A DNA stretch of 37,296 nt from an uncultured Alphaproteobacteria bacterium. Lineage in GTDB: Bacteria; Pseudomonadota; Alphaproteobacteria; Geminicoccales; Geminicoccaceae. How positions within the stretch are numbered: the first letter of the stretch is position 1; every line of letters begins with the position of its first letter. This document shows positions 8,080 to 28,086 of the stretch, piece after piece. The stretch covers positions 1 through 37,296 of the forward strand of contig CALBAK010000034.1 of assembly GCA_937926445.1 (NCBI GenBank). Direction: 5' to 3'. The notes under the pieces are model-generated. The model was not told the DNA's origin. It worked only from the letters and a program-made list of their open reading frames with translations, and did not search any database. Made by a program: the position numbers and the translations under genes.

Positions 8080-10250
8080 TCGACCGGCCTTGCCGCGTCT
8101 GGCGGCGGGAGAGGAAATCGTTCGGCGAGTGGGTGAGGCGCGGCGCATGGCGCGAGGCTGGCGGCGGGCCCGCGCCGGCCGAGACCCCTGCTCGCGACGG
8201 CCGCCCGAGACGCTGCGGGCCCGCGTTCAGCTTCCACCCACACGTTCGTCGGCGGAACACGATCTGCTCGGGGCGGTCCACGAACCGCCGCAGATCCGAG
8301 GAGCGCCCGCGCCGCTTCCGCGCACGAGGAGCGCCCGCGCCGAGAAGGCCCCGATTGTCGGTATCTCTTGCTCGTCACAACGGCGGTCTCCAGGATCCGA
8401 CCGTCGGCGGACCGGTTTCTTCTGCGGGTCGGCCCGCGTCGACGGCTGCGCGAATCGCCACGAGCGAGACGGCCGGCCCTCGCCCGTCGGCGATCGCGGC
8501 TGCAACCGCCGGCGTTCGCCCGGCACCGCGAGCCGAGGGCTCGTCCGGTTCGTTCTCGCAAGCGCGCCACGGCCTCTGCGAAGAGCTCGGTGGTACCCGT
8601 CCCGTCGAGCCGGCGCCGGCTCGACCGAGACCTCGGCGCCCGATCGTGCCCATCCGACCCGCTCGGCTCGTCCGCGACGAGGCTCCTCTCCGTCCGGGCG
8701 CATCGACGCGGTTTCACGCGAAGCCTGAATTCGTTCCCGGGGATCCGCACCCGCTTCTCGCGGACTGTGCGATCCACGGTCGTCGGGGCCTTGTGTCGTG
8801 CCGCAGGAGGGGCGGCACCGAGGGCCCGCGCGGATCGCACCGGGGCTCCGCATCGGATCCCCGGTCGCGAAAGTCCCTCGCTTCGGCGGCTGGCGATTCG
8901 CGGACGGCGATCGGCTGGCCGGCGGTTGCGCGTTCTCGCGTGGACTGGGCGGAGCCGATCGCGCGGGTCGTTTCGATCGTGCCGGCCGGGCGGTGGCGCG
9001 GCTCCGCGAGCCTCGGGACTTCGAGGGTAGCCGGAGCCCGGCGAGTGGGAAGGATTGCACGCTCCTCTGGGCCCTCCGCCGCAACGGTTCCCGTTCGGCC
9101 GGCCGTTGCCCGGCCGATCGTCCGATGCCCTCCCACTTACCCGTGCGACGGTCGTCCCGCCCGCCCGGCGGTCGGGCACCTCTCCGACGCTTCGTTCCGT
9201 CGCTTCCGGAGGCGCGACGGCCACCCCGGCCGGGGCGTGGTTTTCCGCTCGTCGTCCCTTTACCGCCGGGCTTCGAGTGTCGGGGACGCAGAGGCCGCCG
9301 CGGGCCAGGTTCGCGGACGCCGCCTCCCGAGCGCCGAGCGGTCGTTCCCGAGCGCGCCCTCGTCGAACCATACCGTGACTTCGGCTGCACGGGTGCCGAG
9401 GGCTCCACGGCGAGAGAGGTTCCCTCGTCGACGCATCGTTCCCACCACCAGGGTCTTCAGGGGTGCCTCGAGGTCGACGAGTGCGCTTCCTCTCGGCTCT
9501 CGGCGCGGGGGCGGAGCCGAGCGGATCGCGGGCGTGTCGTCGGATCCGGGAGGAGAACGACGGCGCGAAGGCGATCGCGGGGCTTGTTGCGAGCGCGGGT
9601 CGAGAAGAGCAGTACCGTTCGCCGCAGCGGGGCGACCGCCCGGGCGACCGGGCGCTCGACCGTAGCGGGCAGACGCGTTCGCCGGCGCGGGCCTGTCCGT
9701 CTCGATCCGTGACCGGAACGCCCGGTCGCCGCGCGGCCGGGCGCGTCGGTTCCACCGCCCGATGGTTGTGGTCCGACGCTCCCCGGGACCGTACCCTTCC
9801 GGCGGCCGAGCCGGCGCGGATGCTCGACGATGACCGGGCAGAGTTTCCGCGGCCGAACTCGGCCGGGCCGGTCCCCGGCGAACCGGCATCGTTCCACTGA
9901 TTCCGGGCCGCCCAAGGGGAGCCGCGCGACGGATGGCGGCGGACGCGGCGAACCTCCCCGAAGCCCGTCGGGCGTCTCCTGCCGCGCCGACCCTGCTCGG
10001 CCCGCTGCTTCGGGAGCAAGCATCACTCCGTTGGTGCCGCGTCAGGCAGGCGGCCGATCGACGCGGCGCTGATCCGCGGCGTCCGGGTGGGCGGCTCGTG
10101 CCGGGCCGACCTCCCCCACCCACCCGTGCGCGGGGAGGCTTGCGCGCGTCGGCGACCGTCGATTGGAACTGGCGGGACACCGGGCCTTGCTGCCGGCGTC
10201 GGGAGGGGGTAGAGCGCCTCGGGGACGGCTCCTCGAGCCCGGAGGTTGTC
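8080..10250. other. 2.2-kb tract without recognisable gene
   Basis: Frames of up to several hundred codons stay open on both strands, but their products are Arg/Pro/Ser-rich with no motifs, hydrophobic segments or family resemblance I can detect. The tract contains an 18-bp direct repeat (8297-8314 and 8325-8342). It sits between two copper-related genes, so it may be the remains of decayed genes. Confidence 0.6.
8297..8342. repeat. 18-bp direct repeat, 28-bp period
   Basis: The sequence CGAGGAGCGCCCGCGCCG occurs at 8297-8314 and again at 8325-8342, separated by 10 bases. It lies in a gene-free tract about 220 bp downstream of copA. It is probably a small tandem duplication. Confidence 0.8.
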
Positions 10251-10724
10251 GTGCCGCTCGCTCGCCGCCGCTTGCTCGTAATTTCCGCCTCTGCGACGGC
10301 TCTCGGGATTCTCCGCGGGGTCGATGCCGCGGTGCCGGCGCCGGTCGAGATCTGGAAGCTGCGTGGCTGCGGCTGCTGCACGCTCTGGGCGCGACATCTG
10401 GAGGAGGAAGGTTTCGCGACCCGCGAGCGGGAGGTCCGCGATCTCGCTCCGATCCGCGCCGCGCTCGGGGTTCCGGAGCCGCTCGCCGGTTGCCATTCGG
10501 CTCGGCTCGACGAGCTGGTGATCGAGGGGCACGTGCCGGCGTCCGCGATCCACCGCCTGCTCGCCGCGAGGCCGAGCTGGGTCCGGGGGCTCGCCGTGCC
10601 CGGGATGCCCGAGGGCTCGCCCGGTATGCCGTCGTCGAAGCCCGAGCGTTACGACGTCGTGGCTTTCGGTACCGACGGCAGAGTGGAGCGATTCCTGACC
10701 TTCGTGGGCGACCGGCCGGTGTGA
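10251..10724 (+). CDS. DUF411 metal-binding protein
   Basis: A 157-residue exported protein of the DUF411 family, small proteins commonly encoded beside copper-resistance genes. The N-terminus is a signal-like segment, 'RRRLLVISASATALGIL'. The thioredoxin-like metal motif 'GCGCCTLW' has its three cysteines at residues 40, 42 and 43. The second family signature follows as 'GCHSARLDELVIEGHVP' (about 80-96) and then 'RGLAVPGMPEGSPGM'. The start is the GTG at 10251, with GGAGG at 10241-10245. The family consensus CHTA is CHSA here. Its nearest intact relative in function is the copA gene upstream. A decayed second copy of the family lies at about 22110-22615. Confidence 0.85.
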   Translation: MPLARRRLLVISASATALGILRGVDAAVPAPVEIWKLRGCGCCTLWARHLEEEGFATREREVRDLAPIRAALGVPEPLAGCHSARLDELVIEGHVPASAIHRLLAARPSWVRGLAVPGMPEGSPGMPSSKPERYDVVAFGTDGRVERFLTFVGDRPV

Positions 10725-11829
10725 ATCGGGGGCCGGCGGGCGGTTCGGGCTGGCCTCGGGCAGGATGTGCTGCCGCCCGGCCCAGCTCGTGCACCGAAGA
10801 TCCCGAGCACCAGGCTCGTCGGCACGGGGCGCTCGCGCCCGGCTTCGTACGAGGCTTCTCGCGCCCTCTGCGGAGTGGCGATATCGCTGTTCGTGTCTGG
10901 TCGGAGGAAGCTGGCATTCCTCGACAGGGTCCGGGCCGGAAGGACGACCGGACCTGGCCGGTAGATGAGCGGGCGCCGAGGCCGGTTCTCCGACGAGCGC
11001 TCCCGGAGCGGTTCGCGTTCGAAAGAAGGGAGAAGGGGGCTCGCGGCACAGCGATAAATGTCCGCCGTCCCCTCCCGGAAAGAGTAGTTCGCCGGGCAAA
11101 CCGAGCCGCTCGCCCTGGTTGGAGATGCCGGGCGCTCCGCCGCGCGGTGGGCGATCCGTGCCTGAGAGGGAACGCCATGCGGACCGGACCTAGCCGGTGG
11201 CCGATCCCTCCCGTCCTTTCCGCTCGCACCGAGGCATCCACTCTCTTCCGCTGGCCCTCTGGTGACACGCAGCGCGAAGGCGATTACAGGCAAATGTGGC
11301 GCGCCGGTCGCGAAACGCGTGACGACAGCGAGGCGCTCGTGCCTTTCCTGGAAAAAGGCTGGTCCTGGTCCGACCCCTGAGAGGAGCGAGACGACGAGTC
11401 TGCCGCGGGAGAAGGCGGGTCTGCAACCGCAACGCCGGCCGGGCCGCAGACCGGCACGGACCCGGATCGGTCGCAACGACATACGCGCGCCACACCCGGC
11501 CGGCCGAACCGAGCCCCTCCGTGCTCCTCGAAAGCACGCCACTGCGAACGATATTCCGACAGGTGGTCGAGCCGCGCCCGCCGGGCTCGAGAAGCCGGCT
11601 CCTTCGACCGCATCCTAGGCCGAGCCGCCGCGGCCCCGTGCACGAGCCGGGGACCGGGCGCTCGCCTCGTCCCAGCCGAGCCGGGGAGGGCCCGCCGTTT
11701 CCGCCCCATCCATGATGAGTGACCCGCAGATCCGAGGAAACCATGTCCCGGCCCCAGGCGCTCTCGCTGCAAGTTCTGCCGATTCCGATCGGGCGCGGCC
11801 GCGGATGCGGCCCCTGGCCTCCCGCGCCG
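10725..11829. other. 1.1-kb tract without recognisable gene
   Basis: No frame on either strand gives a recognisable product or an obvious ribosome site plus start. The composition resembles the other gene-free tracts. A 15-base match (CCGCAGATCCGAGGA) is shared with the tract near 8288; this may be chance at this GC content. Confidence 0.5.
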
Positions 11830-13483: not shown

Positions 13484-14398
13484 GTGCGCCACCGCTTCGT
13501 CACCCTCGACGTCTTCACCGATCGCCGCTTCGCCGGCAACCCACTGGCCGTGCTGCTGGAGGCCGCGGGTCTCGAGGCCGGGCGGATGCAGGCGATCGCC
13601 CGCGAATTCGGCTATCCCGAGACGGTGTTCGTCCTGCCGCCGGACGACCCGGCGCATCTCGCACGGCTGCGGATCTTCACCCCGACGCTCGAGGTGCCGT
13701 TCGCCGGGCATCCGACCATCGGCACCGCCCTCCACCTCGCGCGGGACGGGCGCTGCACGCCGGGACCCGACGGGCGGGCACGGATCGTTCTCGAGGAGAA
13801 CGCCGGTCCGGTACCAGTCACGGTCCTCTTCGAGGAGGGAAGGCCGGTCCGGGCCGAGCTCACCGCGCCGCAGCGGCCGCGGCACGGGCCCCGGCTCGAG
13901 CGGGAGGCGGTGGCCCGTGCGCTCGGCCTCGCGACGGCCGACATCGTGGCCGACGGGCCCGCACCATGCGTCGCCGGCGCCGGGCTTTCGTTCCTGATGG
14001 TCGAGCTCCGCTCCGTCGACGCTCTGGGCAGAGCCCGGCCGGTGAACCCCGAGACCGTCGCGGCCGTCCTCGCCGACCTCCAGGAGCCGCTCCTCTACCT
14101 CTTCACCCGGGCGACCGGCACACCCGGGATCGAGGTGCGCGCCCGCATGTTCGCCCCGGGGGCGGGAGTCGCGGAGGATCCGGCCACCGGCTCGGCAGCC
14201 GCGGCCCTCGCGGGCCTCCTCGCCACGGCCGACCCCCGGACCGATGGGGATCTCGCCTGGCACATCGAGCAGGGCGTCGAGATGGGACGTCCCTCGTTCC
14301 TCGCCGCTCACGCGCTCAAGCGCGACGGCCTCGTGGTCGAGGCAAGGGTGGCCGGTGGAGCGGTCGGCGTGATGGAAGGCACGATCGAGACCGCGTGA
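13484..14398 (+). CDS. PhzF-family isomerase / phenazine biosynthesis-like protein
   Basis: A 304-residue member of the PhzF family, a two-lobed diaminopimelate-epimerase-like fold. The only well-defined reaction in the family is PhzF's isomerisation of trans-2,3-dihydro-3-hydroxyanthranilate; most members are uncharacterised. Motifs are 'VTLDVFTDRRFAGNPLAVLL' at the N-terminus, 'EFGYPETVFVLP' with the catalytic Glu near residue 46, 'TPTLEVPFAGHPTIGTA', 'APGAGVAEDPATGSAAAAL' and 'QGVEMGRPS'. All signature residues look intact. The GTG start has GGGAG upstream, and the gene begins 24 bp after the J-domain gene on the same strand, so they may be cotranscribed. No other phenazine genes are present, so phenazine synthesis should not be inferred. 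Confidence 0.88.
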   Translation: MRHRFVTLDVFTDRRFAGNPLAVLLEAAGLEAGRMQAIAREFGYPETVFVLPPDDPAHLARLRIFTPTLEVPFAGHPTIGTALHLARDGRCTPGPDGRARIVLEENAGPVPVTVLFEEGRPVRAELTAPQRPRHGPRLEREAVARALGLATADIVADGPAPCVAGAGLSFLMVELRSVDALGRARPVNPETVAAVLADLQEPLLYLFTRATGTPGIEVRARMFAPGAGVAEDPATGSAAAALAGLLATADPRTDGDLAWHIEQGVEMGRPSFLAAHALKRDGLVVEARVAGGAVGVMEGTIETA

Positions 14399-14740: not shown

Positions 14741-15645
14741 TCAACGCTGCAACGGCTCCGCCCCGTCGCCTCGAGGGCGGTTGGACCTTGCGGCCGAAGG
14801 CCGCCCGGCCCGCCTCAATCGAAGGTTACGAGAGCGCGCGACCTCCCGGTCGTAGCCGCGGCTCGCCGCCAGGAGCTGGCGCGAATAGGGCTCGACGAGT
14901 TCGTCCCGGGCCAGGCGATCCACCGCCGCCTGCTCGACGATCCGGCCGTTGTTCATGATCGCCACCGTGGCACACATCCGCGCCACCAGCGCGAGATTGT
15001 GGCTCACGAAGATCCAGGAGAGGCCGTAAGCCTCCTTGAGGTCGAGGAGCAGGTTCAAAATCTCGGCCTGGATCGACGCGTCGAGCGCCGAGGTCGGCTC
15101 GCCGGCGACCAGAAGGCGCGGCTCGGCCACCAGCATCATGGCGATCACGACGCGCTGGCCCATCTCGCCCGAGAGCTCGTACGGGAAGGCGCGGACGACG
15201 CGTGCCGGCTCGCGGATGCGCACCGTCTCGAGCATGGCGAGCGCCCGCTCGCGGGCCTCGCGCCGACCGATCCGCTGGTGAAAGCGCAGCGCCTCGACGA
15301 TCCGGGCGCCCACCCGCATCATCGGGTTCAAGGAGAATTCGGGTCCTGCAGCACCACGGAGGCGCGGCCACCGCTCAGCTCGCGCAGCGTGCCGGGATCG
15401 GCTCGCAGCACGTCGATGTCGTCGACCACGAGCCGCTCGGCCGCCACCTCGTCAGGTGGCGGAACGAGCTGCAGGAGCGCGCGGCCCAGGGTGGACCTAC
15501 CGGAACCCGATTCGCCGACGATATCGAGCCGCTCGGCACCCAACGTGAAGGAGACGCCCCGCACCGCGTCGATCGGGCCGCGCGGGGTCGGGAAGCGAAC
15601 CCGTAGGTCCGCGACCCCGACCAACGGCCGTCCCGCTTCGGCCAT
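14741..15645 (-). pseudogene. dppD: Broken peptide ABC transporter ATPase (DppD/OppD-like)
   Basis: A peptide/nickel-type ABC ATPase remnant. It starts at ATG 15645 ('MAEAGRPLVGVADLRVRFPTP'), overlapping the stop of the upstream permease remnant (TGATG). A one-base loss near 15335-15340 splits it: the first part ends 'VVLQDPNSP' and stop, while the next frame continues 'LNPMMRVGARIVEAL' to the C-terminus. Catalytic motifs are also altered. Walker A reads GESGSGRST (Lys to Arg), the signature LSGGMRQR reads LSGEMGQR, and Walker B LLxADEPT reads LLVAGEPT (Asp to Gly). Each change would be expected to cripple ATP hydrolysis. The coding sense beyond about 14830 is doubtful. This is the last visible gene of the dppABCD-like operon. 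Confidence 0.88.
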
Positions 15646-16526
15646 CAGCCGCGCCCCCGTTTGGGATCGAGCACGTCCCGCGGACCGTCGCCCGAGAGGT
15701 TGAAGCCGAGCGAGACGAGGAAGATCGCCGCCCCGGGCATGCCCGCGACCCACCACAGGTCGAGCACACATTGCCGGTCGCTCGCGATCATCGCCTCCAA
15801 TCGGGGGCCGGCGGCCGGGCGCCGAGGCCGAGAAAGCCGAGGCCGGCGGCGGTCAAGATGATCCCTGCCGTGTCGAGGGTCAGCCGGACGATCGCCGAAG
15901 AGGGGCACAAGGGCACGACCTGGCCCAGGAGGATCCGCGGCGTCGAGGCACCCTGGACGATCGCCGCGGCGATGAAGTCGCTCTTGCGGATAGCCAAGGT
16001 CTCGGCCCGCGCCAGCCTTGCTCAGGGCGGCCAGGCGGTGACCGCGATCGCGAGGATCGCGTTCTCGATCCCGGGGCCGAGCGCGGCGGCCAGCGCGAGC
16101 GCCAGGATCGGCCGCGGGAAGGCGATCGGTCAGCCGCATCGGCAACGTGTCGACCCAGCCGCCCGGATACCCGGCTACCGTCCCGACCTGGAGGCCGAGC
16201 GGCCCGACGATCACCACGACGATGCCGACGATCGTGAGGGTGATGCGCGAGCCCCAGACGATCCGCGCCCAGATGTCGCGGCCGAGTTCGTCGGTGCCGA
16301 GCCAGTGCGCCGCCGAGGGCGGGGCGAGCCGGTTGGCGAGGTCCTGCTCGATCGGCGAGCGGCCGGCGATCCAGGGCGCGAAGAGCGCGGTGAGCAGGAG
16401 CAGGAGGACCAGGCCGAGCCCGACCATCGCGATGGGGTTGGCGCGAAACGCACGCGAGGCGAGCCACCACGCCTGGGCGCGCGAGCGCGGCACCGGATCC
16501 AGGAGCCAGGCGCGCAGCCCGCTCAC
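15645..16526 (-). pseudogene. dppC: Broken peptide ABC transporter permease (DppC-like)
   Basis: A DppC/OppC-type inner-membrane permease remnant. It opens with GTG at 16526, overlapping the dppB stop, and reads 'RANPIAMVGLGLVLLLLLTA', 'LGTDELGRDIWARIVWGSR' and 'GTVAGYPGGWVDTLPMRL' cleanly. A deletion near 16127 removes a few codons of the 'LTDVxLAFP' motif and shifts the frame. The new frame then meets a TGA at 16022-16024, inside what should be 'AWPPxARLARAE', and continues 'KSDFIAAAIVQGAST' to 'AAGLGFLGLG'. Another shift near 15797 precedes 'LVSLGFNLSGDGPRDVLDP'. At least three independent lesions make this a pseudogene rather than a sequencing slip. Confidence 0.9.
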
Positions 16527-17527
16527 GTCCGCGCCTCCGGGTCGAGCAGTCGATAGAGCAGGTCCGAGAAAAGGTCGAGGCCGATGAACACGCAGCCGAC
16601 TACGATCGTGCCGCCGAGCACCATGTTCGTGTCGGCGTCGAACAGGGATTCGGTGATGTAGCGGCCGAGGCCCGGCCAGGCGAACACGGTCTCCGTGAGC
16701 AGCGCGCTCTCGAGCAACGAACCGTAGGAGAGAGCAGCCACCGTGACGAGCGGCACCAGGCAGCTGCCGAGCGCGTGCCGCCACACCACCCGCCATTCCG
16801 GCACGCCCTTCACGCGTGCGATGGTGACGTATTCCAGGCGGAGCTCGGCGAGCATGAAGCTTCGGGTCGTACGGCTGATGTAGGCGAGCGAGAAACAGCC
16901 CAGGATCGAGGCCGGCAGGATCAGGTGAGCGAGGGCGTTGGCGAAGATCTCCCACTCACCGGCCAGCGCCGCGTCGAGGAGGAGGCCGGTCGTGGGTTCG
17001 AGCAGGTCCTCGAAGGCGACGCCGAGCCTACCCGGCCCCTCGACCCAGCCGAGCTTCGTGTAGAACAGGACGAGGCCCATGAGCCCCAGCCAGAAGACCG
17101 GTACCGGATAGCCGACGAGGCCGAGCACGCGGACGAGATGGTCGGGCCAGCGATCGCGGTGGACCGCGGCCAGAACCCCCGCCGGCACGCCCAGAAGCAC
17201 GCCCAGGAGCGTGGCGGCGGTAGCGAGCCCGACCGTGGCCGGGAAGAAGCGGGCGATGTCGGCGAGCACGGGTTGGCCCGTGAGCGCGGAACGGCCGAAA
17301 TCGCCTGACAGCACCTTCTGGAGATAGAGGAGGAACTGCTGCTAGAGCGGCAAGTGCGGGCCGAGCTCTTGCCCCACGCGCTCGTCGACCTCGGGCAGGG
17401 CACGATCACCCACGATCTCGAGGACGGGGTCGATCGGTACCACCCGGCCGATCACGAAGCCGACCGCGAGCAGCCCGGAGAAAGTGAGCCCGAGGGTGCC
17501 GAGGGTCCGAAGCACGAGGAGCGTCAC
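16523..17527 (-). pseudogene. dppB: Peptide ABC transporter permease (DppB-like) with one nonsense codon
   Basis: A DppB/OppB-type permease. The N-terminal helix ('LGLTFSGLLAVGFVIGRVVP') and the loop before the second half are followed by an in-frame TAG at 17342-17344, in 'HLPL*QQFLLYLQKVLSGDFG', where relatives usually have a Tyr codon. From 'LSGDFGRSALTGQPV' on, the remaining frame to 16523 is complete and well preserved, including 'YISRTTRSFMLAELRLEYV' and 'ARVKGVPEWRVVWRHALGS' (the EAA-type loop). Only one clear lesion is seen, so this gene is the freshest casualty of the operon. A translational restart could make the C-terminal part, but without helix 1 it is unlikely to work. Confidence 0.85.
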
Positions 17528-17606
17528 ACGCGACGGCGCGGATGCCCGGATCGGGACCGGCGAGGATAGGGGAGCCCGGCTGGGCGAGTCCCCGATCCCT
17601 GGAGCC

Positions 17607-19212
17607 TCGCTTCTGGACGAGAAGGTAGAAAATCTGGTCGGCGAACGGGCCGGTCACGAAGCCCTTCACGTTGGCGCGCCGGGCCGGCTGGTCCTGGACC
17701 TGGAACACGATGACGAACGGGCTGTTCTCCTGCACGATCTTCTGCAGCTCGAGGTACATCTGTAGCCGCTTGGCCGGGTCGCGCTCGCGCGCCGCGGCGT
17801 CGGTCTTCTCGGTGAACTGCGGGATCTCCCGGCCGTTCCGCCAGGCGAGCGGCCGCGATTTGGCTTTGTCAGAATTATCCGGGTTTCGGGTGAAGGTGTC
17901 GGCGTTGCTGTGCGGGTCCAAATAGTCGGCCGACCGGTACAGGAACACCATCGGATGGTTACGGACCCTGTACTTGGTGATGACCTGCTTCTGCTCACCC
18001 GGGACGATGTTCACTTCGATGCCGGACTGCGCCATCGTCGCCTGCACCGACTGGGCGACGTCGATCGACGGGTAGAAATTCGAGGCATCGAGGCTCACTT
18101 CGAAGCCGTTCGGATAGCTCGCCTCGGCCAAAAGCGCCTTGGCCTTGGCGACGTCGAGCCGGAACGGCGTCTCGGTCGAGGAGCCGGCGAAGCCCGACGG
18201 CCAGAAGGCCTGGTGCACCTTGAAGCGACCCTCGAGGAAGCTCTCGGTCGTGCCCTGATAGTCGACGAGCCAACGCAGGGCTTGCCGCACCTTGGGATTG
18301 CGCAGCCGCTCGTGTTTCTGGTTGAGGCCATCGTAATAGACCTCGGCCTTCGGGCTCGATTCGACGACGGTGTCCTTGTTGCCGGCGAGACCCGCGATCT
18401 GGTCGGCCGAGAGGTTGCGGGCCATGTCGACGTCGCCCTTCTCGAGCAGAAGACGCTGGGTGGCGGGCTCGGGTACGTGCCGGATCACGACCCGCTTGAT
18501 CGAGGGCGCACCGCGCCAGAAGGTCAGATTGGCCTCGAGCACGTCGCTCTCGTTGGGCTTCCAGGAACGCAGCACGAACGCCCTCGAGCCGGCATAGTTG
18601 GTCTCGAGCCAGCCATTGCCGAGATCGCCGTCCTTCTCGTGCTGCAGGACCACATTCGTCTCGACGATCGAAGCGATGTTCGCCGAGAGGGTCGAAAGTA
18701 CGAAGGACGAGCCGAAGTCATCGGTGATCGCGATCTGCAGCGTCTTCGGGTCGAGTGCCTTGACGAGCTTTTCGACTTTGTCCTTGTCCAAGCCGAGCTG
18801 AGTGAGGATGAAGCCCGGCGACTTGTTCATCTTGACGCCGTGCTAAAGCGAGAAGGCGACGTCCTCGGCCGTGATCGGCGCACCGGAGGCGAACTTCGCC
18901 TCCCGGATCTCGAAGGTGATGGTCTTGCCGTCGTCGCTGACCGTGTAGCTCTCGGCCGCCGCCGGCTGCAGGTTGACCAGATCGGTGGCGTCGAAGTTCA
19001 TCACCCGTTCGTAGCTATTGGCATCGATCTCGTTGCCCGAGAACTCGAACGACTCTTGCGGGTCGAGGGTGATGATGTCGTCGATCTGCTCGGCCATGAC
19101 GAAGGTATCGGCCGGGGTCGCAGCCGTCGCCGAGCCCGCCCCGAGTGCCGAGGCCACCGCGGCCGCGCCGACCCGAAGCCCCGTCCCCCCGAAGCTCGGT
19201 CCCGATGCGCAT
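17607..19212 (-). pseudogene. dppA: Broken peptide/solute-binding protein (DppA/OppA-like)
   Basis: A periplasmic family-5 solute-binding protein remnant, the first gene of the operon. The ATG at 19212 follows an AGGGGGG ribosome site, but a frameshift in a G-run (19185-19190) separates it from the signal peptide frame 'LRVGAAAVASALGAGSATAA'. After 'EIREAKFASGAPITAEDVAF' an in-frame TAG at 18843-18845 replaces what is probably a Gln codon ('FSL*HGVKMNKSPGF'). The rest reads cleanly through 'RNPKVRQALRWLVDYQG' and 'SSTETPFRLDVAKAKALLAEA' to 'FADQIFYLLVQK'. There the expected stop appears to be CGA instead of TGA, so the frame runs on into dppB. That makes three lesions: frameshift, nonsense and stop loss. 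Confidence 0.9.
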
Positions 19213-19567: not shown

Positions 19568-20245
19568 TCAGACGGCGAGCTTGACCTTCTGGTACTCGAG
19601 CCGCCAATGGCCGAGCGGCACGGGTGTGGTCACACCCGCCACCGCAGCGAGAGCCGCCGCGAGCCGCTCGCGGGCGGCGCGCACGGGGCCGGGCCGCGAG
19701 CTCTCGACCAGCAGGACCGCATCGCACACGCCGACGCTGCGGCCCTTCTTTTCGGCGGTCTCGATGGTCGAGCCGGCCCGGTCGGTCTCGCACCAATGCA
19801 CACCGGCGATGCCGTGGTCGAGGTAGAGCTCCGAGAAGTGACGACCGAACAGGATGCGGCGGAGCTCGGCGAGCGCCGGTCCCGGCGCGTCGATCCCGGC
19901 CGCCACGAGTTCCGCGCCGTCGCCCTTGGCGTGGCTGAAGATCTTGCGGGTGAGGATACGGGTCGTGTTGTAGAAATAGGGAAGGGCCTGCCGGGTCCAC
20001 GGTGTCGGATCGTTGAGCCGGTTCAGATAATCCGTGCCGACCTGCACCTCGGGGCTCACCGTCTCGTAGCACATGAAGAAGCGCACCGGTGCGTCGACCG
20101 CGACGTAGCGCCGGCCGCGCAGGAAGCCCGGAATGCCGACCCGCTCGAGGACGTGCTCGTTGTCGTGCCAGGCGTAGAAGGTCTCGAGCCCTTCCTCGCG
20201 GATGTCCGACCAGATGGCGATGAATCCCTCGCCGAAGAGCGTCAT
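19568..20245 (-). CDS. Conserved hypothetical protein, EthD-like alpha/beta-barrel type
   Basis: A 225-residue cytoplasmic protein with no signal peptide or membrane segment. The opening 'FIAIWSDIREEGLETFYAWHDNEHVLERVGIPGFLRGRRY' (in two parts, residues about 7-47) resembles the dimeric alpha/beta-barrel (EthD-like) hypotheticals of proteobacteria, in which a WHDxEHxxERVxIPGF pattern recurs. A second half with 'GIAGVHWCETDRAG' suggests a duplicated barrel. The ATG at 20245 is preceded by AAAGGGGG. The frame is complete and looks conserved, which contrasts with its decayed neighbours on both sides. Similar proteins are sometimes found with catabolic genes, but the substrate and reaction are unknown. 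Confidence 0.7.
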   Translation of the reverse strand: MTLFGEGFIAIWSDIREEGLETFYAWHDNEHVLERVGIPGFLRGRRYVAVDAPVRFFMCYETVSPEVQVGTDYLNRLNDPTPWTRQALPYFYNTTRILTRKIFSHAKGDGAELVAAGIDAPGPALAELRRILFGRHFSELYLDHGIAGVHWCETDRAGSTIETAEKKGRSVGVCDAVLLVESSRPGPVRAARERLAAALAAVAGVTTPVPLGHWRLEYQKVKLAV

Positions 20246-20329
20246 CGATCCCCCTTTCCGAGTTGGCGCCCGGCGTGCGGCGCGCGCCGGTCGTAGCGAC
20301 GCCGGCCGCGGCGAGCGAGGCGCGTGTAT

Positions 20330-21093
20330 CGTGCAGCACGCCGCGCGCCGGGAAAACGTCGGTGATCGGCCCTCCGATCCGCTCGCAGACCGGATCGTGG
20401 CGCGCCGCGAGGCCGCACGGCCGGGTCACCGGCACCGGCGGGTTTCGCTCGACCCGGCCGGGACGTGGCCCCGTCGCGACGACCCGATCGGCGAGTCTAC
20501 CGCCTTGTCGATCGAGCGGACGAGGAACGGCACCGTCTCGCGGGTCGAGCGCCACGGCTCCTCGAGGTCGATCTGGAGCCGCTCGCGGGCGAGTGCGTCG
20601 AGCGGCCCGAACGGCTCCTCCACGAGCAGGAGCGCGGGGTCGTGGATCGGGGGCCCGGGCGAGTGCGGCGCGCTGGAGCGATCCGGCCGAGAGTTCGTGC
20701 AGCGAGGGGCTCTCGAAGCCGTCGAGACCGACCGCTGCGAGGAGCTCGAGGGCGCGTGCCCGCCCAGCCGGCGCCGGCGAGGCCGCGCGGCACGTCCTGG
20801 ACGAGCACATCGCCGAGAAGGTCCCGCCAGGGCAGCAGCACCCGCTTGCGGAAAACGATGCCGAGCTCGGTGACGGGCACCGTCACCGTTCGGCCGGCGA
20901 CGACGGCGGCCCAGCCCTCGCTCGGTACGAGGAGCACGGCCACGAGCCGGAGCAGCGTGCTCTCGCAGCGGCCCGTGGAGCCGACGAACGCCGGGAACTC
21001 CTGCTCGCCGACCTCGAGGTGGACCGGCCCGCGCGCCCGCGTCTCGAGGCCGTCGCGTCGGAAGGTCTCGCCGACCCCGGCGAGCGCTATCAT
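20330..21093 (-). pseudogene. Broken NitT/TauT-type ABC transporter ATPase
   Basis: An SsuB/TauB-type ATPase remnant. It begins at ATG 21093 ('MIALAGVGETFRRDGLETRA') and reads 'LRLVAVLLVPSEGW' and 'ELGIVFRKRVLLPWRDLLG', which match the family's 'IVFQxPxLLPWR' Q-loop. Walker A is destroyed: 'VGSTGRCESTLL' instead of GxSGCGKST. The coding sense then hops frames: one gives 'LELLAAVGLDGFESPSLHELSAGSLQRAALARA' in pieces (signature LSGG to LSAG), another 'HDPALLLVEEPFGPLDALAR' (Walker B D to V/E), then back to 'ADRVVATGPRPGRVER'. Multiple frameshifts and lost catalytic residues make function very unlikely. It directly follows the binding-protein remnant. Confidence 0.88.
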
Positions 21094-21129
21094 CGGCCCC
21101 GGCGCGGGGGCGGGCCCGGCCGAGCCCGC

Positions 21130-22090
21130 GAGGTCGCGCGCCGACGGCCCCCTCACCGCTACGGCGAATCGTCGGTGACGCAGGTCGTGGCGGACCGGCC
21201 GGTCGTCGGTTCGCGATACGGGATACGGAACCAGGAGCTCTCGGGTCCGGCTCCGGCCCTCCGTCGCCGCGAAGCCGATCCGCTTGCCGTGGGGCGCGGG
21301 CGATTCGAGCACACCGAGGTCGGCCGGGAGCTGCTACTGCGCCGATTCGCGGTCGAAATCGGGCTCGACCGCGGCGGCCGTGGCGACCGCCGCGTCCGGG
21401 TCCGCGTCGGCCGCCGCCCGGGCGCTGACCGTGCCCTCGCCGAAGCGGCGCACGAAATCGGGCCGCCCGCGGAGCCTGTCCTCGTGGGCACGGATCGTCA
21501 CGCCCACGGTGTCGACGCCGAGATCGGCGAAGCACAGGCCGACGGCCTTGTGGGCCTGCGCCTCGATCGGGAAGAACCGATTGTCGATCCCGTCAACGAG
21601 CGCGTCTGTCCGACCTTCGAGCGTGGCCGGCACTTGGGCGGGCAGGTCCACGAAGAGGAGTTCGATCGTGCGCGCGTCGAAACCGTCGGCCTCGATCACG
21701 GCCGGGAGGAACCGGGTCTAAGCTTCGCCCGGCGAGAGCGCGAGCTTCTCGCCCTCGAGGTCCTCGGCGGTGCGGATGCCGCTCTTATCGAGGCCGACGA
21801 TCGTCGAGTCCGAGGTGTCGAGGAGCGACAGGAAGGCCTTCGAGGGCGCACCGCGGCTCGCCCCGATCGTCGAGGAGCCGGCATCCGACATGCCGAAAGT
21901 GTCGCCCTCGGCGGCTACTCACGGGACCGCGCGGAGCGAGCCGCGACCCTCCTCGATCGCGAGATCGACGTTATCGCCCGCTTAGCAGCCGTCGGCCACA
22001 CTCGGGTAGAAGGGTGTGGGCAGCCCGGATACCAATCGAGGGTGACAGAAATCTTGTCGGACGCGGCGAGCGGGCCGGCAGCCTCGCGAA
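21130..22090 (-). pseudogene. Broken NMT1/THI5-like substrate-binding protein
   Basis: The remnant of a periplasmic binding protein of the NMT1/THI5/SsuA group, which deliver sulfonates, nitrate or thiamine-precursor pyrimidines to ABC transporters. 'KISVTLDWYP' starts the mature domain. After a frameshift the order is 'IEEGRGSLRAV', 'TFGMSDAGSSTIGASRG', 'IVGLDKSGIRTAEDLEGEKL', 'VIEADGFDARTIELLFVDL' and 'ATLEGRTDALVDGI'. In-frame stops are TAA at 21982-21984, TGA at 21919-21921, TAG at 21718-21720 and TAG at 21334-21336. The signal peptide region upstream is not recognisable. The ATPase remnant follows on the same strand; a permease of matching type is found only 5 kb away (26095-26964). Confidence 0.88.
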
Positions 22091-22109
22091 AAGGGAGGCG
22101 TCCAGCGCG

Positions 22110-22615
22110 CCCACGACGAGCCGTCTGCTCCTCGCCGCCACCCGAGCCTCTCCGCCTGTCCGCTGCAGTCGCTGCCCCGGCCGCCCTCGCCGAGCTCGGC
22201 CGCGCGGCCCCCCTTCCGCCGTGCCACATGCGCCGAGCCGTCGAGCCGAGAAGACGGATCTCCGCCCACGTCTCGCCGGAGGCCTCTTCGAGGCTCCAGT
22301 CGCCCGACTGGAACTCGCCCTGGGCACGGCCGGCGGCGGCGCGTCGGGCGGCCGGCACGAGCTCGGCAGGGCCCGACATCGGCCGGCTGCCGTTCGGCTC
22401 GGCTCGACGATCTCGCGATCGAGGAGACGTGCCGGCTCTCGCGACCCGCCGGCTGCTCGTCACGCGGCCCAGCCGGGTCGGGGGTGCGCCCCAGGAGGCC
22501 GGCGAGCTCGCGGGGTACACCGTCGTCGGAACCCGCGCGTTACGACGTGCTCGCCTTCGGTGCCGACGGCGGGACGGAGCGGTTCGCGAGCTTCGTGGGC
22601 GAGCGGCCGGTGTGA
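22110..22615 (+). pseudogene. Decayed second copy of a DUF411 gene
   Basis: The last 29 or so codons read 'PARYDVLAFGADGGTERF', then 'FVGERPV' and stop, nearly identical to the C-terminus of the intact DUF411 protein at 10251-10724 ('ERYDVVAFGTDGRVERF', 'FVGDRPV'). Upstream, nucleotides around 22391-22425 match the intact gene's 'CHSARLDELVIEG' segment (TTCGGCTCGGCTCGACGA is shared) but in a different frame. The metal motif GCGCC and the EGHVP segment are no longer readable. A possible leader 'TSRLLLAATRAS' lies near 22115. The similarity stops at the shared stop codon, so the flanks are unrelated. Confidence 0.8.
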
Positions 22616-25134
22616 ACCGAGGGCCGAAGGTGGTTTCCCCGCGCTCGGGCGGGGGAATGGCGAGGGCCCCGCTCGGCGGGGATCGTGTCGGCTGCGCCGG
22701 GCGGCCGTCGGCGAGGCGTGGACGGAGGCGAGCCGAAGTCGCGGCGAGCTCGGCGGCCGAAGCTGCCGAGAGCTTGGCAACCGATCGATTCCTTGCGGTC
22801 GCAACCGTCCTGCCGGACCCGCTGGATGGCGCTGTCTCGTGTGGGCACGGTCTCGGCCGGGGAGCGCCGGGATTTTTTCCACCGGTTCGCGGTTCGCTTC
22901 GCCCGGCTGCGTACGCTCCTGGGTCCGGCCCCGACACCGGCGTCCCGGCCGGTGGGTGACGGTGCGGGCGGATTCGCCGGGTCGGATGGCGCCGGCGCGG
23001 CGGTCCGCGAAGCGAGGGCAGATCGGTTCGACGGCCTCGGCGTGCGGTGTCGGCCGGAAGGCCGGCCCGATGCGCGCCGGTATCGAGGCGCGGCTTCGTG
23101 GGTGGTGAGGCGAGCGCTCCCTCCGGCCGCGTGCGACGCCGAAGCGGCGCCGCGGGTCGTCGTCGTGGCCGCCTCGCCGATCGACCGGACTGGTGGTGCA
23201 CCCGCCGTGCGGTCCGATCGTCGAGCGGCCGAGCTGGCGGCGCAAGTGCGTTCCGAGGCGAGCAACCGATCGCGCCGGCGAGCATCTGCTCCACCCCTCG
23301 TTCGCGCCCGCGACCGAACGAAGAGTCGCGGGAAGTGGGCCAACGACGGCGCTACCGGCGGCGGATCGGAGCGGGCGGGCAGGATCGCGCGCCGGCACGG
23401 CTCGAACCTTCGCTGCCGCGGTCGAGCGGCCGTGGCGGTCGAGTCCGATCCCGGCCCAGGCGCGGGCGGCGCCCGTCGGGTAGCCGGTGGCCTACACCGC
23501 GGATCGGCAGCTGATCCCCATCCGCCACGGCCCGATGGGCCTCCGCGCCGCAGGCGAAGCGACGGCCGCCCCCGCGCTCGTTCGGCCGGAGTGGGTGCGC
23601 CGCGCCTCGCAACCCGCCGTTCGCCGGCGGTCGCGCCGCCCCCCCCAGGGTGACGGAGTTCGGGGCCCGGGCTCGAGCCCGCCCGGGCCGGAGCCGGCAG
23701 GCTCGAACGCCGGACGGACGCGCCGGGAGAGGCGTAGCGAGGAGGCTTTCCGCGTCGGCCGGGCCGTGCTCGAGTGCGGCGGGGCGGTAGCGTTTCGAGG
23801 AACGGCGAGAGGGCAGGGCGCGAGCCTTCGGCCGTCGGCCGTGCGATCGGCATCCGGCGCGAGGCGCAGAGGCGACCGGTCGACACTCCGACCGGCATCG
23901 GACGATCCGCCGTTCCGCACGGCGCGCGGGAGGATCGTCGGGCGATCCGACATCCGTGCAGTACGAGACTGGCCCCGGCGCGAGGCGTTCGGCCAGGCGG
24001 CGCTGCGGCGAGTCGGAAGCCGGCGCTACGCCGATCGATCCTCCGACGAACGGAAGCGAGCGGCAAGTGCCTGCGGTCGGGCTCGTCCCTACCGTGCCCG
24101 GAGAACGACGGCTTGCGCGCACGGGACGGCGCCGATCTTCGGCGTGTCGGCGGCCACGCGCCGCTATTCCTTCGCGGCGGGCCGACGCGCCCCCTCGTCG
24201 GTACGGTCGGCTCGCCGAGAGCCCGCGGTGTCGAGCACATCCCGGGCGGGGGCCTCGCGATCCGCTCTCGCGGCGAACGCCGTTGTCTCTGACCGCTCCG
24301 GATCGCGATCCGGTCCCCCGTTCTCTGATGGCGAGCGGGTCCCCCGACGATCGGTCGCCGGGCCGGAGGTCGTCACCGGGGAGACGGTATCCCCGGCCCG
24401 TTCGGGCCCGAAGAGAGCACGGGACCACCGTTGCACGTCGAGACTCGACAGTACGTCGAAACGTCGGGCCGGCAGCCACACCATCGGCCGGCCCGACCAT
24501 GACCCTTGGTCTCGGGTGTGGTCGGGCTTCGGGCGCCGTTCCACGCTCCTGCGCGTGCGACGTCGGTCGCCGCGGCGGGCACGAACGCGGGCGACACGCT
24601 GGTCCGCATTCGGAGCGCGGCCGGGATCGACCCGTCCGGCTCGAGCCACCCGGTGCGGAATCGGCGTCGGCCGGGCCGACGGCTGGTCCCGCCACGCTTG
24701 CGGTGTCGCGAAACACGTCGCGGCGAGGTATCCCATGGGCGTCCTCGATAGCCGGATCCCGCCATGCGAACCCACGACCGACACGGTCGAAGGTCGAAGC
24801 GCCGGGAACCATGACGACGGGGACCGCGCCAGGATCGTCGAGTCGACCGGCACGAACGGTCGAGACGACGGAGACAGGACCCGGGACGGTCAGCGGTCGA
24901 TCTTGCTCGCTACGACGTCCGCACGAGGGCTTGGCGCTCGCGCTGAGGGCTCGAACGATGCCGAGCGTAGAACCGCCATACTCGGTAGCCTCGGGCGACG
25001 GCGAATCTCGGCCACGCCTCGACGCGGAGCGCCCCACATCCGTCTCGTGAGGTCGGCGCAGCCGGGCTCCTCTGGCGTGACGGATCGTCGCGCACGCGAT
25101 GTCGGATGCGCGCCACGCTCGGTGAGAGGGGCCG
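22616..25134. other. 2.5-kb tract without recognisable gene
   Basis: This is the longest gene-free stretch in the window. Frames of over 600 codons are open on both strands at once, which shows they persist by composition. The products are rich in Arg, Pro, Gly and Ser with no hydrophobic segments or known motifs. The end of this tract may hold the promoter of the terC remnant; I could not recognise a yybP-ykoY-type manganese riboswitch there. Confidence 0.6.
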
Positions 25135-26191
25135 TTGACCGCGATCGACGCGATCCTGTTCGACACGTTCCTCGGCAAGGCCGGCCGGTTTTTGCTCGTC
25201 TTTCTTCGCGCTTTTCTTCGCGCTGGTCGTTCTGCCGTTGGTGCTGGACCTCTGGGTGCTCCACCGCGAGCAGCGCGAGATCGGCCCACGGGAGAGCCTG
25301 CTTCTCTCCGCCTTCTACGTGACGTTCGGTCTTCTCTTCGGGGCCCGGGTATGGTGGCAGCCCGGCGCCTGGGCCGGACTCGCCTATCTCACCGTCTTCG
25401 CCGTCGAGAAGACGCTCGCGATGGCCAACGTCTTCGTCGTCACGGTGATCTTCTCCTATTTTTCCGCGCCGGAGCACTACCGGCACCAGGCCCTGTTCCG
25501 GGGCGTGCTCGGAGTCGTTCTGCTCCGCACCGTCGAGATCGGCCCGGGGCCTGCTATGGTCCGAAGCTTCGACTTGTTGCTCCCGTCGTCTGCTGTGTTC
25601 GTGCTCGTGACAGGAGTGCGGATGCAGACGGTCGCCGAGCGAGAAAGAGAAGGCCGAGCCGGGCGGGGGTGGCTAGTGCGCATTCTGGAGCGCCGACTGC
25701 CGGTTACCCGTGAGCAGCACGCCGAGCGCTGCTTCGTCCGCCCGGCCGATGCGACGACCCGCCGCAGCGCGCTCTACGCCGCGCTCCTCTTCCTGGCCCT
25801 CGTCCAGATCGAGTTCGCCGACCCGATCGTCGCGGTCGACAGCTTCCCTGCGATCTTGCCGATCACGAACGACCCGTTCGTCGTGTACACCTCGAATATC
25901 TTCGCGACCCCCGGTCTTCGAGTGCTCTACTTCGCGCGCGCGACGATGATCGAGCGCTCGCGCTTCCCGGAGACGGCACTCGTGCTCGTCTTCGTCGGCG
26001 GCAAGATCGTCGCAGCCGACCTGCTCGGCATCGAGAAGGTCCCGGCCGCTTTTTCCCTTGGGGCCGTGCTCGCGATCCTCGCGGGTGGCGTGGCCTACGG
26101 CCTTCGGCGCACATGCCCGGAGCCGCGGCCGGCCGCTCGTCGAAATTCGGGCTCCCGGAAGACGTTCTCCGGTCTTGCGCTGTCGGCGTAG
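25135..26191 (+). pseudogene. Broken TerC/Alx-family membrane protein
   Basis: A TerC/Alx-type multi-span membrane protein (family linked to manganese export and tellurite resistance). A TTG at 25135 gives the family N-terminus 'LTAIDAILFDTFLGKAGRF'. A one-base insertion between about 25190 and 25202 shifts the frame, next to a 12-bp tandem duplication (25201-25224). The rest of the protein then reads in one frame from 'VLPLVLDLWVLHREQREIG' through 'VTVIFSYFSAPEHYRHQALF' and 'AVDSFPAILPITNDPF' to 'VVYTSNIFATPGLRVLYF'. The conserved acidic motif of helix 3, normally SxDN, is 'AMANV'. Together with the frameshift this argues for a dead gene. Its 3' end overlaps the convergent permease remnant. 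Confidence 0.8.
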
Positions 26192-26964
26192 CAGGAAAAG
26201 TGGAGTGCCTCCGGGAAATCTACCGACCGGTACAGCGCGAGACTCGTGGCCGAGAGCAGAATCGCGACGGCGTACACCATCGCCGTCTCGAGGTCGCCGT
26301 CGCACTCGAGCGAGAGATCGCCGAGGCCGCGATCGGAGACGACGAAATCCGCCACAACCGCGGCCGTAGCCGCGAGCGCGGCGCCGACCTCGAGGCCGGT
26401 GGACAGCTCGGGCAGTGCCTGCGGCAGACGGATGGCGAGGAACAGGTGCCGGGCGCTCGCTCCCGTCGATCGACCGAGGTCCACGACCTCGGGATCGAGT
26501 GCCTCGAAGCCGGCCACCGCGCCCCCGAGTATCGGGAAGAAAGAGAGGAGAAAGACGAGCAGGAGCTCGGGCGCGAAGCCGAGACAGACGACGGAGCCGA
26601 GACAGAAGACGAAGAGAGGCGCGATCGCGATTTCGGCGACGATCCGCGGGAACAGGATCGAGGGATGGACGGGCCGTTCGGCGAGCCGGGAGCCGGCGAG
26701 CAGGAGCGCTAGGGGCAGGCTCGCCGCGATCACGAGGAGAAAGCTCGCGAGGACTTCCGAGCCCGTGATGCGCCCGGCTTCGAGCACCCGGGGCCAGCGA
26801 ACGGCGAACGCCGAGGCGACCGAGGAGGGCGGCCGCAGGAAACGGTCCGGCGCCGCGAGCGCGCGTACCGTCGATCCCCGGAAGAGCGACGAGACGAGAA
26901 GCGCACCCGCCCCGGCCATCGGCCGGCGCAGCCGACCGACCGCACTGCGCCCACGCTCCTGCAT
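26095..26964 (-). pseudogene. Decaying NitT/TauT-type ABC permease (frame still open)
   Basis: An SsuC/TauC-type inner-membrane permease of about 289 codons without any stop, but with eroded motifs. Recognisable parts are 'LPLALLLAGSRLAERPVHP', 'IAEIAIAPLFVF'-like sequence near the middle, 'ALDPEVVDLGRSTGASARHL' and 'IRLPQALPELSTGLEVGAAL', the EAA loop that contacts the ATPase. Relatives have 'GASxxxIFxKIRLPxALPYIFTGLK' there; here several key positions differ. 'GDLSLECDGDLETA' replaces the usual 'GYLLLVANGDLDTA'. The helices contain charged or polar interruptions. The last 35 codons look unrelated and overlap the terC remnant. Its likely partner binding protein and ATPase (20330-22090) are also dead, so loss of function is probable. 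Confidence 0.65.
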
Positions 26965-26985
26965 CGCTTTCGCTTCCCGAACCAC

Positions 26986-28086
26986 CCCGCCTCCGGTGCC
27001 CGATCAACAGAGACGGCACTCTCCCGGCAAGCCGATGCGGTACGCGCCGGGGCGGTATCCGGAGACTCCCGCCTCACTCGCGTCCTTCCGGTCCCGCCGG
27101 CGCTCTCGTGTCTGTACCCGAGAATGGTTAACGAACCGTGGACGCGTGCGACCCGCACGGGCTCCCGGCACGCCGACGGCCGCCTCGATGTCATGGTCCG
27201 CAGTTGCCCTGTCGGTGACGAGCGCTTCCGAAGCCGAGCCGGCGGCTCGCTGCTGTCCATGGTCCGATCATCAGGTCGGGACGTGTCCCGGTGGGCCCAA
27301 TCGGGCCCACGGCCGCCGCCGGGCCGCGAGCTTCCAGGCGTGCTCCGCCCGGACTCGTCGCACGAAGCGTTCGAACCCGAGAAACGCGATGCCGACGGCA
27401 TCGGACGCTCGAGCGGAGGGGTGTCGGTCCCGAGGGCACGGTCGACCTGTTCGTGCTGGCCAGCGTCGAAAAGTCGTGCGACCTCGCCGGTCTCGCGACG
27501 GAAGGCCCGGTGGTTCTCGACTGCCGCCTCGAAGTCGGACGGTTTCCCATTCATCGCCGTGCCGTCCCTGCAAATCCATCGTCCGAGCCGACGACAGCTG
27601 TCCTTGCCGATGGATTCGGTACCGAGCTTTTCCTTCTTCGAAACCGTGTTGCGGTACGTGACCGAGCACGGCGTATGCTCCCGGCTGACCTCGGCGAGGT
27701 TCGACCGGCCCCTCTCCGCTTCCGATGGATCGGCGCGGACCCTCCCACGACCCGCGATCAGGTGGAAAGGCCCGAGGAGCGCTGGTACGCGGGCTCGATC
27801 GTGACCCGATCGGTCTCTCACCCGCTCGGTCCGTTTCCGGTTTCCTTCGGAGAGGTTGTCGTTCCTGGTAACGGCCGCACAGGCCGCGATCGAGCCGCAT
27901 CCGCTGGACCTCCGGAGCGGGCAGGTTCCGTCCGCACAGCCGAGGTTCGCCCCGAAGCGCTCGAAAGTTCTCCTGCGACGAGAGGGTGAGGACGCCTTAG
28001 AACGTGCTTGCCGCCGAACGCAGCTGTTCCTCCCTTCGGTCCCGACGAACGCTTCCGCCACCGACCCCGGTTCGCTCCGTTACCGC
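26986..28086. other. 1.1-kb tract without recognisable gene
   Basis: No frame gives a recognisable product. The tract includes two abutting perfect inverted repeats at 27277-27310. It separates the decaying permease from the DUF1499 gene, whose 3' end faces it. Confidence 0.55.
27277..27310. repeat. Two abutting perfect hairpins
   Basis: CGGGAC-gt-GTCCCG (27277-27290) is followed without a gap by GTGGGCCC-aatc-GGGCCCAC (27291-27310). Both stems are perfect. There is no T-run on either side, so a standard intrinsic terminator is unlikely. Confidence 0.75.

Follow-up and report, generated by a model that had tools for sequence, protein, structure and literature searches.

The window analyzed here, a stretch of 37,296 nucleotides from an uncultured alphaproteobacterium of the family Geminicoccaceae, comprises the entire contig C34 of its genome (G000; an assembly of 3.71 Mb in 120 contigs, 98.6% complete). 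Between 14.8 and 19.2 kb it carries a five-gene ATP-binding cassette (ABC) importer operon of the SBP_bac_5 type, in the order dppABCDF, and this operon is dead. Its genes were located by tblastn with the proteins of three annotated plasmid operons, run against the window and five relatives (G002, G008, G011, G015 and G022); the matches cited are those of a single reference, L033. In the window their matches lie on the minus strand, in the order A-B-C-D/F. All five dpp genes match in one frame and without a stop in G002, G008, G015 and G022, and only A-C match within the stretch compared in G011. Among the five genomes of the same genus used for comparison (G001-G005), G002 has an operon identical to that of the window in gene order and strand, and we called the lesions gene by gene, at the codon level, against this intact copy.

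The Pfam domains SBP_bac_5, BPD_transp_1, OppC_N and ABC_tran can still be recognized in the remnants. The dppA homologue (17607-19212, minus strand; intact G002 orthologue L028:7047-8636), whose remnant matches PF00496 (SBP_bac_5, family 5 binding protein) with an E-value of 2.9e-56, is a pseudogene with a 16-bp insertion near codon 4 (~19,203), a TAG at codon 118 (18,845-18,843) and a terminal stop that is gone at codon 530 (~17,609). Both permease genes are recognized by tblastn and by Pfam, through PF00528 in dppB and PF12911 in dppC. The dppB homologue (BPD_transp_1; 16523-17533, minus strand; G002 orthologue L028:8705-9718) is a pseudogene and the least damaged of the set, with a TAG at codon 64 (17,344-17,342) and an in-frame loss of 3 bp; the putative TTG start of the G002 gene reads TCG in the window. 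Heavier damage is found in the dppC pseudogene (OppC_N in the remnant; 15645-16526, minus strand; G002 orthologue L028:9715-10617), which has lost 12 bp in frame, 8 bp at ~16,126 and 1 bp at ~15,802, and has a TGA at codon 175 (16,024-16,022). The front part of dppD (ABC_tran, from the N-terminus to Walker B; 15085-15645, minus strand, delimited by alignment and translation) has lost 1 bp at ~15,340, and its alignment and translation show replacement of the Walker A Lys by Arg, the signature Gly by Glu and the Walker B Asp by Gly. A first-pass annotation of the window had listed lesions in these four genes, with order and strand kept and dppB least affected; all of them proved real in the comparison with G002.

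In its order of binding protein, two permeases and ATPases, and in its Pfam set, the operon resembles ABC importers of the Opp/Dpp/Nik type (SBP_bac_5), but it differs from them in being non-functional and in having its two ATPase genes fused, apparently by deletion. The substrate class is probably peptides or nickel, and the term "peptide" is best read as a family label only. The G002 orthologue of DppA scores 125.9 bits, far short of the NCBIfam dipeptide cut-off of 1005 (NF043070), and this binding protein reaches no equivalog cut-off. Among the matches listed, the only NCBIfam cut-off exceeded is that of Opp2C, "nickel transporter permease", by the G002 DppC orthologue, and the best sequence match of the G002 binding protein among solved structures is AapF, annotated for "peptide/nickel transport".

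Fusion of the two ATPase genes

The window holds a single chimeric ATPase remnant in place of the two separate ATPases, DppD and DppF, that are intact in G002. In overlapping alignments, 14,800-15,188 matches G002 dppF at 77.7% identity, and 15,068-19,187 matches G002 dppD through dppA at 85.5%. A three-way alignment at the base level resolves the remnant into a D/F chimera, with the front two thirds derived from dppD and the last third from dppF. Going down the coordinates, most diagnostic bases agree with dppD as far as 15,089, and from 15,076 most agree with dppF; the switch point sits beside or within a stretch of 10 bp common to dppD and dppF of G002 (15079-15088, minus strand; SALD motif), as judged from the diagnostic positions and the overlapping alignments. 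The back part of dppF (D-loop to C-terminus; 14815-15084, minus strand) has lost 2 bp near 14,841 and lies in frame with the dppD part, and the reading frame is open across the junction. The first-pass statement that no dppF is visible was therefore wrong: dppF is not simply missing, because its C-terminal third survives in the hybrid, fused to the front of dppD at ~15,079-15,088. In G002 the homologous Walker B/D-loop stretches of dppD and dppF lie ~790 bp apart, and a deletion of ~790 bp between these stretches of the tandem genes would yield the in-frame DppD/DppF hybrid. The window has no match to radC, a gene that separates dppF from phzF in G002 and is next to phzF in G005.

The in-frame fusion at homologous codons, with the outline of a whole ATPase domain kept, raises the question of whether the operon was first reduced to one working hybrid ATPase, acting as a homodimer, and died only later. 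We regard this history as unlikely: the catalytic residues are now changed, 1 bp has been lost upstream in the same gene, and the order of events, including which lesion came first, can be inferred but not read from one genome.

Codon-position signature of decay

Differences between the dpp genes of the window and of G002 were polarized with three other-genus outgroups per gene, which left 135 differences unassigned. Changes on the window lineage number 64, 68 and 157 at codon positions 1, 2 and 3, compared with 26, 15 and 133 on the G002 lineage, so that positions 1 and 2 account for 132 of 289 changes in the former and 41 of 174 in the latter (Fisher p = 2e-6). This excess speaks for genuine decay and agrees with the earlier view of an operon that is dead and drifting. 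Assuming a neutral expectation of two thirds of changes at positions 1 and 2, about half of the window-lineage changes would postdate the end of constraint. The first-pass annotation had also proposed alignment to intact orthologues together with the ratio of nonsynonymous to synonymous divergence (dN/dS); beyond confirming the lesions, the pairwise comparison with G002 gives a dN/dS of 0.14-0.29 per dpp gene, and the death of the operon is therefore recent relative to the split between G000 and G002. We conclude that this death is real and fairly recent.

Decay of other uptake operons in the genome

A second dead operon, of the NMT1 type, lies beside the dpp remnant in the same window. Its ATPase gene (20253-21228, minus strand; ABC_tran in the G005 orthologue) has three frame-breaking indels, its NMT1/THI5-type binding protein gene (21205-22032, minus strand) has four stops and two frame-breaking indels, and its permease gene (BPD_transp_1; 26095-27003, minus strand) is open but drifting; the G005 orthologue of the permease likewise has a frame change. 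On the window lineage, 217 of 337 changes in this operon fall at positions 1 and 2, compared with 323 of 800 in eleven control genes of the window (p = 1e-13). Since this share is close to neutral, the NMT1-type operon is more decayed than the dpp operon.

We then compared four sampled blocks (with the window, about 10% of the genome) with collinear stretches of G005. Orthologues were kept in the raw comparison at 60% coverage and 50% identity, which dropped 39 of 322 G005 genes and 18 of 268 G000 genes. By this measure 31 of 283 genes look broken in G000, whereas the reverse comparison gives 5 of 250; with the same domain filter applied both ways, lesions inside a Pfam domain were found in 18 of 283 and 3 of 250, respectively (p = 0.003), indicating a raised pseudogene load of G000 in the sampled blocks. 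The domain limits were set by hand and are approximate for two EamA genes, a tandem ATPase and two window genes, and one of the three reverse cases is the broken Bmp gene of G000 viewed from the other side. Median dN/dS was 0.22 in the 31 raw broken calls and 0.14 in the 252 others (p = 4e-6). In an operon for the uptake and catabolism of nucleosides (G000:C28:16791-24454, collinear with G005:695,781-703,702), consecutive genes are broken; those in C28:16.8-24.5 kb comprise a Bmp binding protein, an ATPase, two permeases, a deoC-like gene and a pyrimidine-phosphorylase-like gene. A branched-chain-amino-acid-type set is broken at C28:47.9-51.7 kb. The dpp operon is thus one of several uptake operons decaying in G000.

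Across the whole genome, 13 of 110 ABC ATPase domains are broken, the window hybrid among them, compared with 0 of 114 in the complete genome G005 (p = 7e-5; tallied by hand, with single partial rows set aside, 8 in G000 and 7 in G005). None of the 36 matches to short-chain dehydrogenases over the cut-off in G000 has a stop. We considered whether decay is restricted to ABC transporters and dropped the idea: ABC-importer components make up 11 of the 18 domain-confirmed broken genes (one of them PBP_like_2), and tests of enrichment disagree, with 3 of 13 genes broken under a motif-based ATPase label and 28 of 270 among the rest (p = 0.16), 4 of 14 ATPase genes against 14 of 269 in a hand count that presumes all 14 to lie within the 283 (p = 0.008), and p = 0.04 for whole-genome ATPase domains against short-chain dehydrogenases. 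Enrichment of decay in ABC genes is suggestive only. The rve transposase family has no match in G000, nor in G001, G002, G003 or G005, and one in G004; its absence from G000 says little, because most of the genus lacks it too.

Relaxed selection in the G000 lineage, which the first-pass annotation had proposed, is supported by these results; the idea that peptide uptake was its specific target, as would suit a host-restricted lineage, is not. SBP_bac_5 loci are indeed broken in 3 of 12 cases, whereas the five genus mates have no broken copy among 44 full matches (two weak G002 rows set aside). One of the three belongs to a second broken SBP_bac_5 operon, on contig C65 (L062:3830-8031), in which the binding protein gene is split and a permease gene carries a stop. 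This operon has an unbroken relative in G004:C187; identity to it is 82-92% in the binding protein and permeases, 65% in a small gene and 47% in another. However, the other 9 of the 12 loci look intact across the domain, operons for other substrates (NMT1, branched-chain amino acid and nucleoside types) are dead too, and the genome shows no shrinkage, its 3.71 Mb falling within the 3.2-3.8 Mb of the five genus mates, whose lifestyles are not established. Having surveyed SBP_bac_5 loci, ATPases and sampled blocks, we dropped the peptide-specific explanation, which we consider improbable.

History of the operon site

The site is flanked by a phzF-like gene (PhzC-PhzF; 13484-14392, plus strand), which has no stop and one compensating +1/-1 pair, and by a gene for a protein of 225 amino acids without a Pfam match, in which no lesion was found (19577-20245, minus strand) and which delimits the site at its opposite end in each of the six genomes of the genus. 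G002 has the intact operon at this same site, on the radC-phzF side of the 225-amino-acid gene. In G005 the flanks are separated by 1.4 kb holding radC and the 3'-terminal 46 codons of dppF (65% identity, E 9e-14). This fossil 3' end of dppF (L144:14549-14762) is the only remnant of the operon detected at the orthologous site. In G001, radC and phzF are present and no dpp match rises above chance; G003 has a gap of ~100 bp at the site; and in G004 phzF is gone as well. In a small tree of three neighboring genes, G000, G004 and G005 form one group (support 91) and G001, G002 and G003 another (support 60). Because G005 keeps the dppF tail at the same site, we place the operon in the common ancestor, and it probably predates the split of these lineages, having since been lost or broken several times.

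Two observations could instead suggest that G000 and G002 acquired the operon laterally and that it failed after transfer: its DNA is 85.5% identical to that of G002 when the adjacent flanks are at ~74%, and none of the four other genus members (G001, G003, G004 and G005) has a match comparable to the G002 alignment. Synonymous divergence from G002 is, however, 0.36-0.55 for the operon, in the lower part of but within the range of 0.32-0.80 found for 12 other window genes, and lateral transfer is therefore not needed. Together with the G005 fossil at the same site and the linkage to phzF, which is a neighbor of the operon in G002 and lies 3.8 kb beyond dppF in G015, a member of another genus, this led us to reject lateral acquisition as very improbable.

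Other features of the window

The binding protein and permease genes of the NMT1-type operon are parted by ~4.1 kb (22077-26208) that is absent at this place in G005 and G004. This stretch contains a terC-like gene (25238-26191, plus strand), and the other open reading frames tested in it have no Pfam match. At 10485-10735 and 22382-22626 the window carries two copies, in direct orientation, of a 250-bp sequence; they are 79% alike, and both match G005 near 2,718,915-2,719,310. A region of ~3.7 kb (8100-11800) has little coding signal by a GC-frame measure; outside 10326-10724, a comparison with G002, G004 and G005 at E 1e-15 gave no match, and three open reading frames tested in it have no Pfam match.

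Discussion

We are highly confident that an ancestral, vertically inherited operon of the SBP_bac_5 family (dppABCDF) has lost its function in this genome and is decaying through point mutations, small indels and one larger deletion. In the sequence of events that we infer, selection to keep the importer would have ceased, the deletion between dppD and dppF would have struck at some point, and stops, frameshifts and changed catalytic residues would have built up in the dpp genes. Taken by itself, the dpp case is clear but ordinary gene decay.

Several observations pull the other way or limit what the signal can carry. The share of dpp changes at positions 1 and 2 is 46%, well below the neutral 67%, and much of the divergence must therefore predate the loss; the 135 unpolarized dpp differences further weaken the comparison. 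The eleven control genes of the window, which were compared with nearer outgroups, themselves show 40% (323 of 800) at these positions, and an aminotransferase among the controls reaches 60% (69 of 115 window-only changes); the codon-position contrast therefore rests mainly on G002. In the genome survey, no Pfam domain is hit by a lesion in 13 of the 31 genes first called broken; three of these lack a Pfam match and several resemble mispredicted starts, and they also include a nucleoside phosphorylase with shifts at or near the domain edges, which lies within the dead nucleoside operon. The single-base lesions are read from the assembled sequence, and each of them, taken singly, is probable rather than certain. 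Finally, the same eleven control genes have 0 stops in 4,101 codons, with one compensating pair of single-base indels, but they were chosen for a continuous match, and their zero count is partly by construction. In a less selected count, 2 of 22 G005 genes with an orthologue in the window are broken in G000, both in the NMT1-type operon, compared with 0 of 20 in G004; the dpp genes, having no G005 counterpart, lie outside this count. With so few orthologues broken, and those in one operon, chance or assembly error is unlikely.

That assembly or consensus errors make intact genes appear broken is very improbable: the genome is a draft of 120 contigs and one sampled gene (G005 1,252,461, 95% identity) has a lone shift outside its domain, but the lesions cluster in certain operons, none of the 36 short-chain dehydrogenase matches over the cut-off has a stop, the broken genes show an excess of replacement changes beyond what consensus errors would mimic, and the D/F fusion, which spans 790 bp, joins homologous codons.

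Beyond the decay of this one vertically inherited operon, the G000 lineage may be giving up its uptake systems one operon after another (SBP_bac_5, NMT1, branched-chain amino acid and nucleoside types) while keeping its genome size, as an early stage of niche narrowing that may be unlike the pattern of young symbionts, with the loss in the window passing through a single-ATPase DppD/DppF hybrid importer that perhaps worked for a while. We offer this broader picture tentatively and, taken as a whole, consider it doubtful. PMC3914690 describes the symbiont SOPE as a genome in which nearly half of the genes are dead and insertion sequences have expanded massively, and Sodalis glossinidius appears in PMC3091646 as a young, degenerating symbiont genome with many dead genes. 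G000 resembles both in that its genome is large and contains dead genes, including some for transport, and is unlike SOPE in that ~6% of its sampled genes have domain-internal lesions; insertion sequences in G000 were checked for rve only. SOPE and Sodalis are symbionts, whereas G000 is known from sequence and has no known host, although host restriction is possible.

What this locus adds is a graded series at one site, with the operon intact in G002, dead in place here, reduced to a fossil tail in G005 and gone from G001, G003 and G004, which brings the order and tempo of operon loss within reach of study in a single genus. The findings also flag a genome with several dead uptake operons yet no loss of size, and such a genome could help to separate the causes of genome decay.

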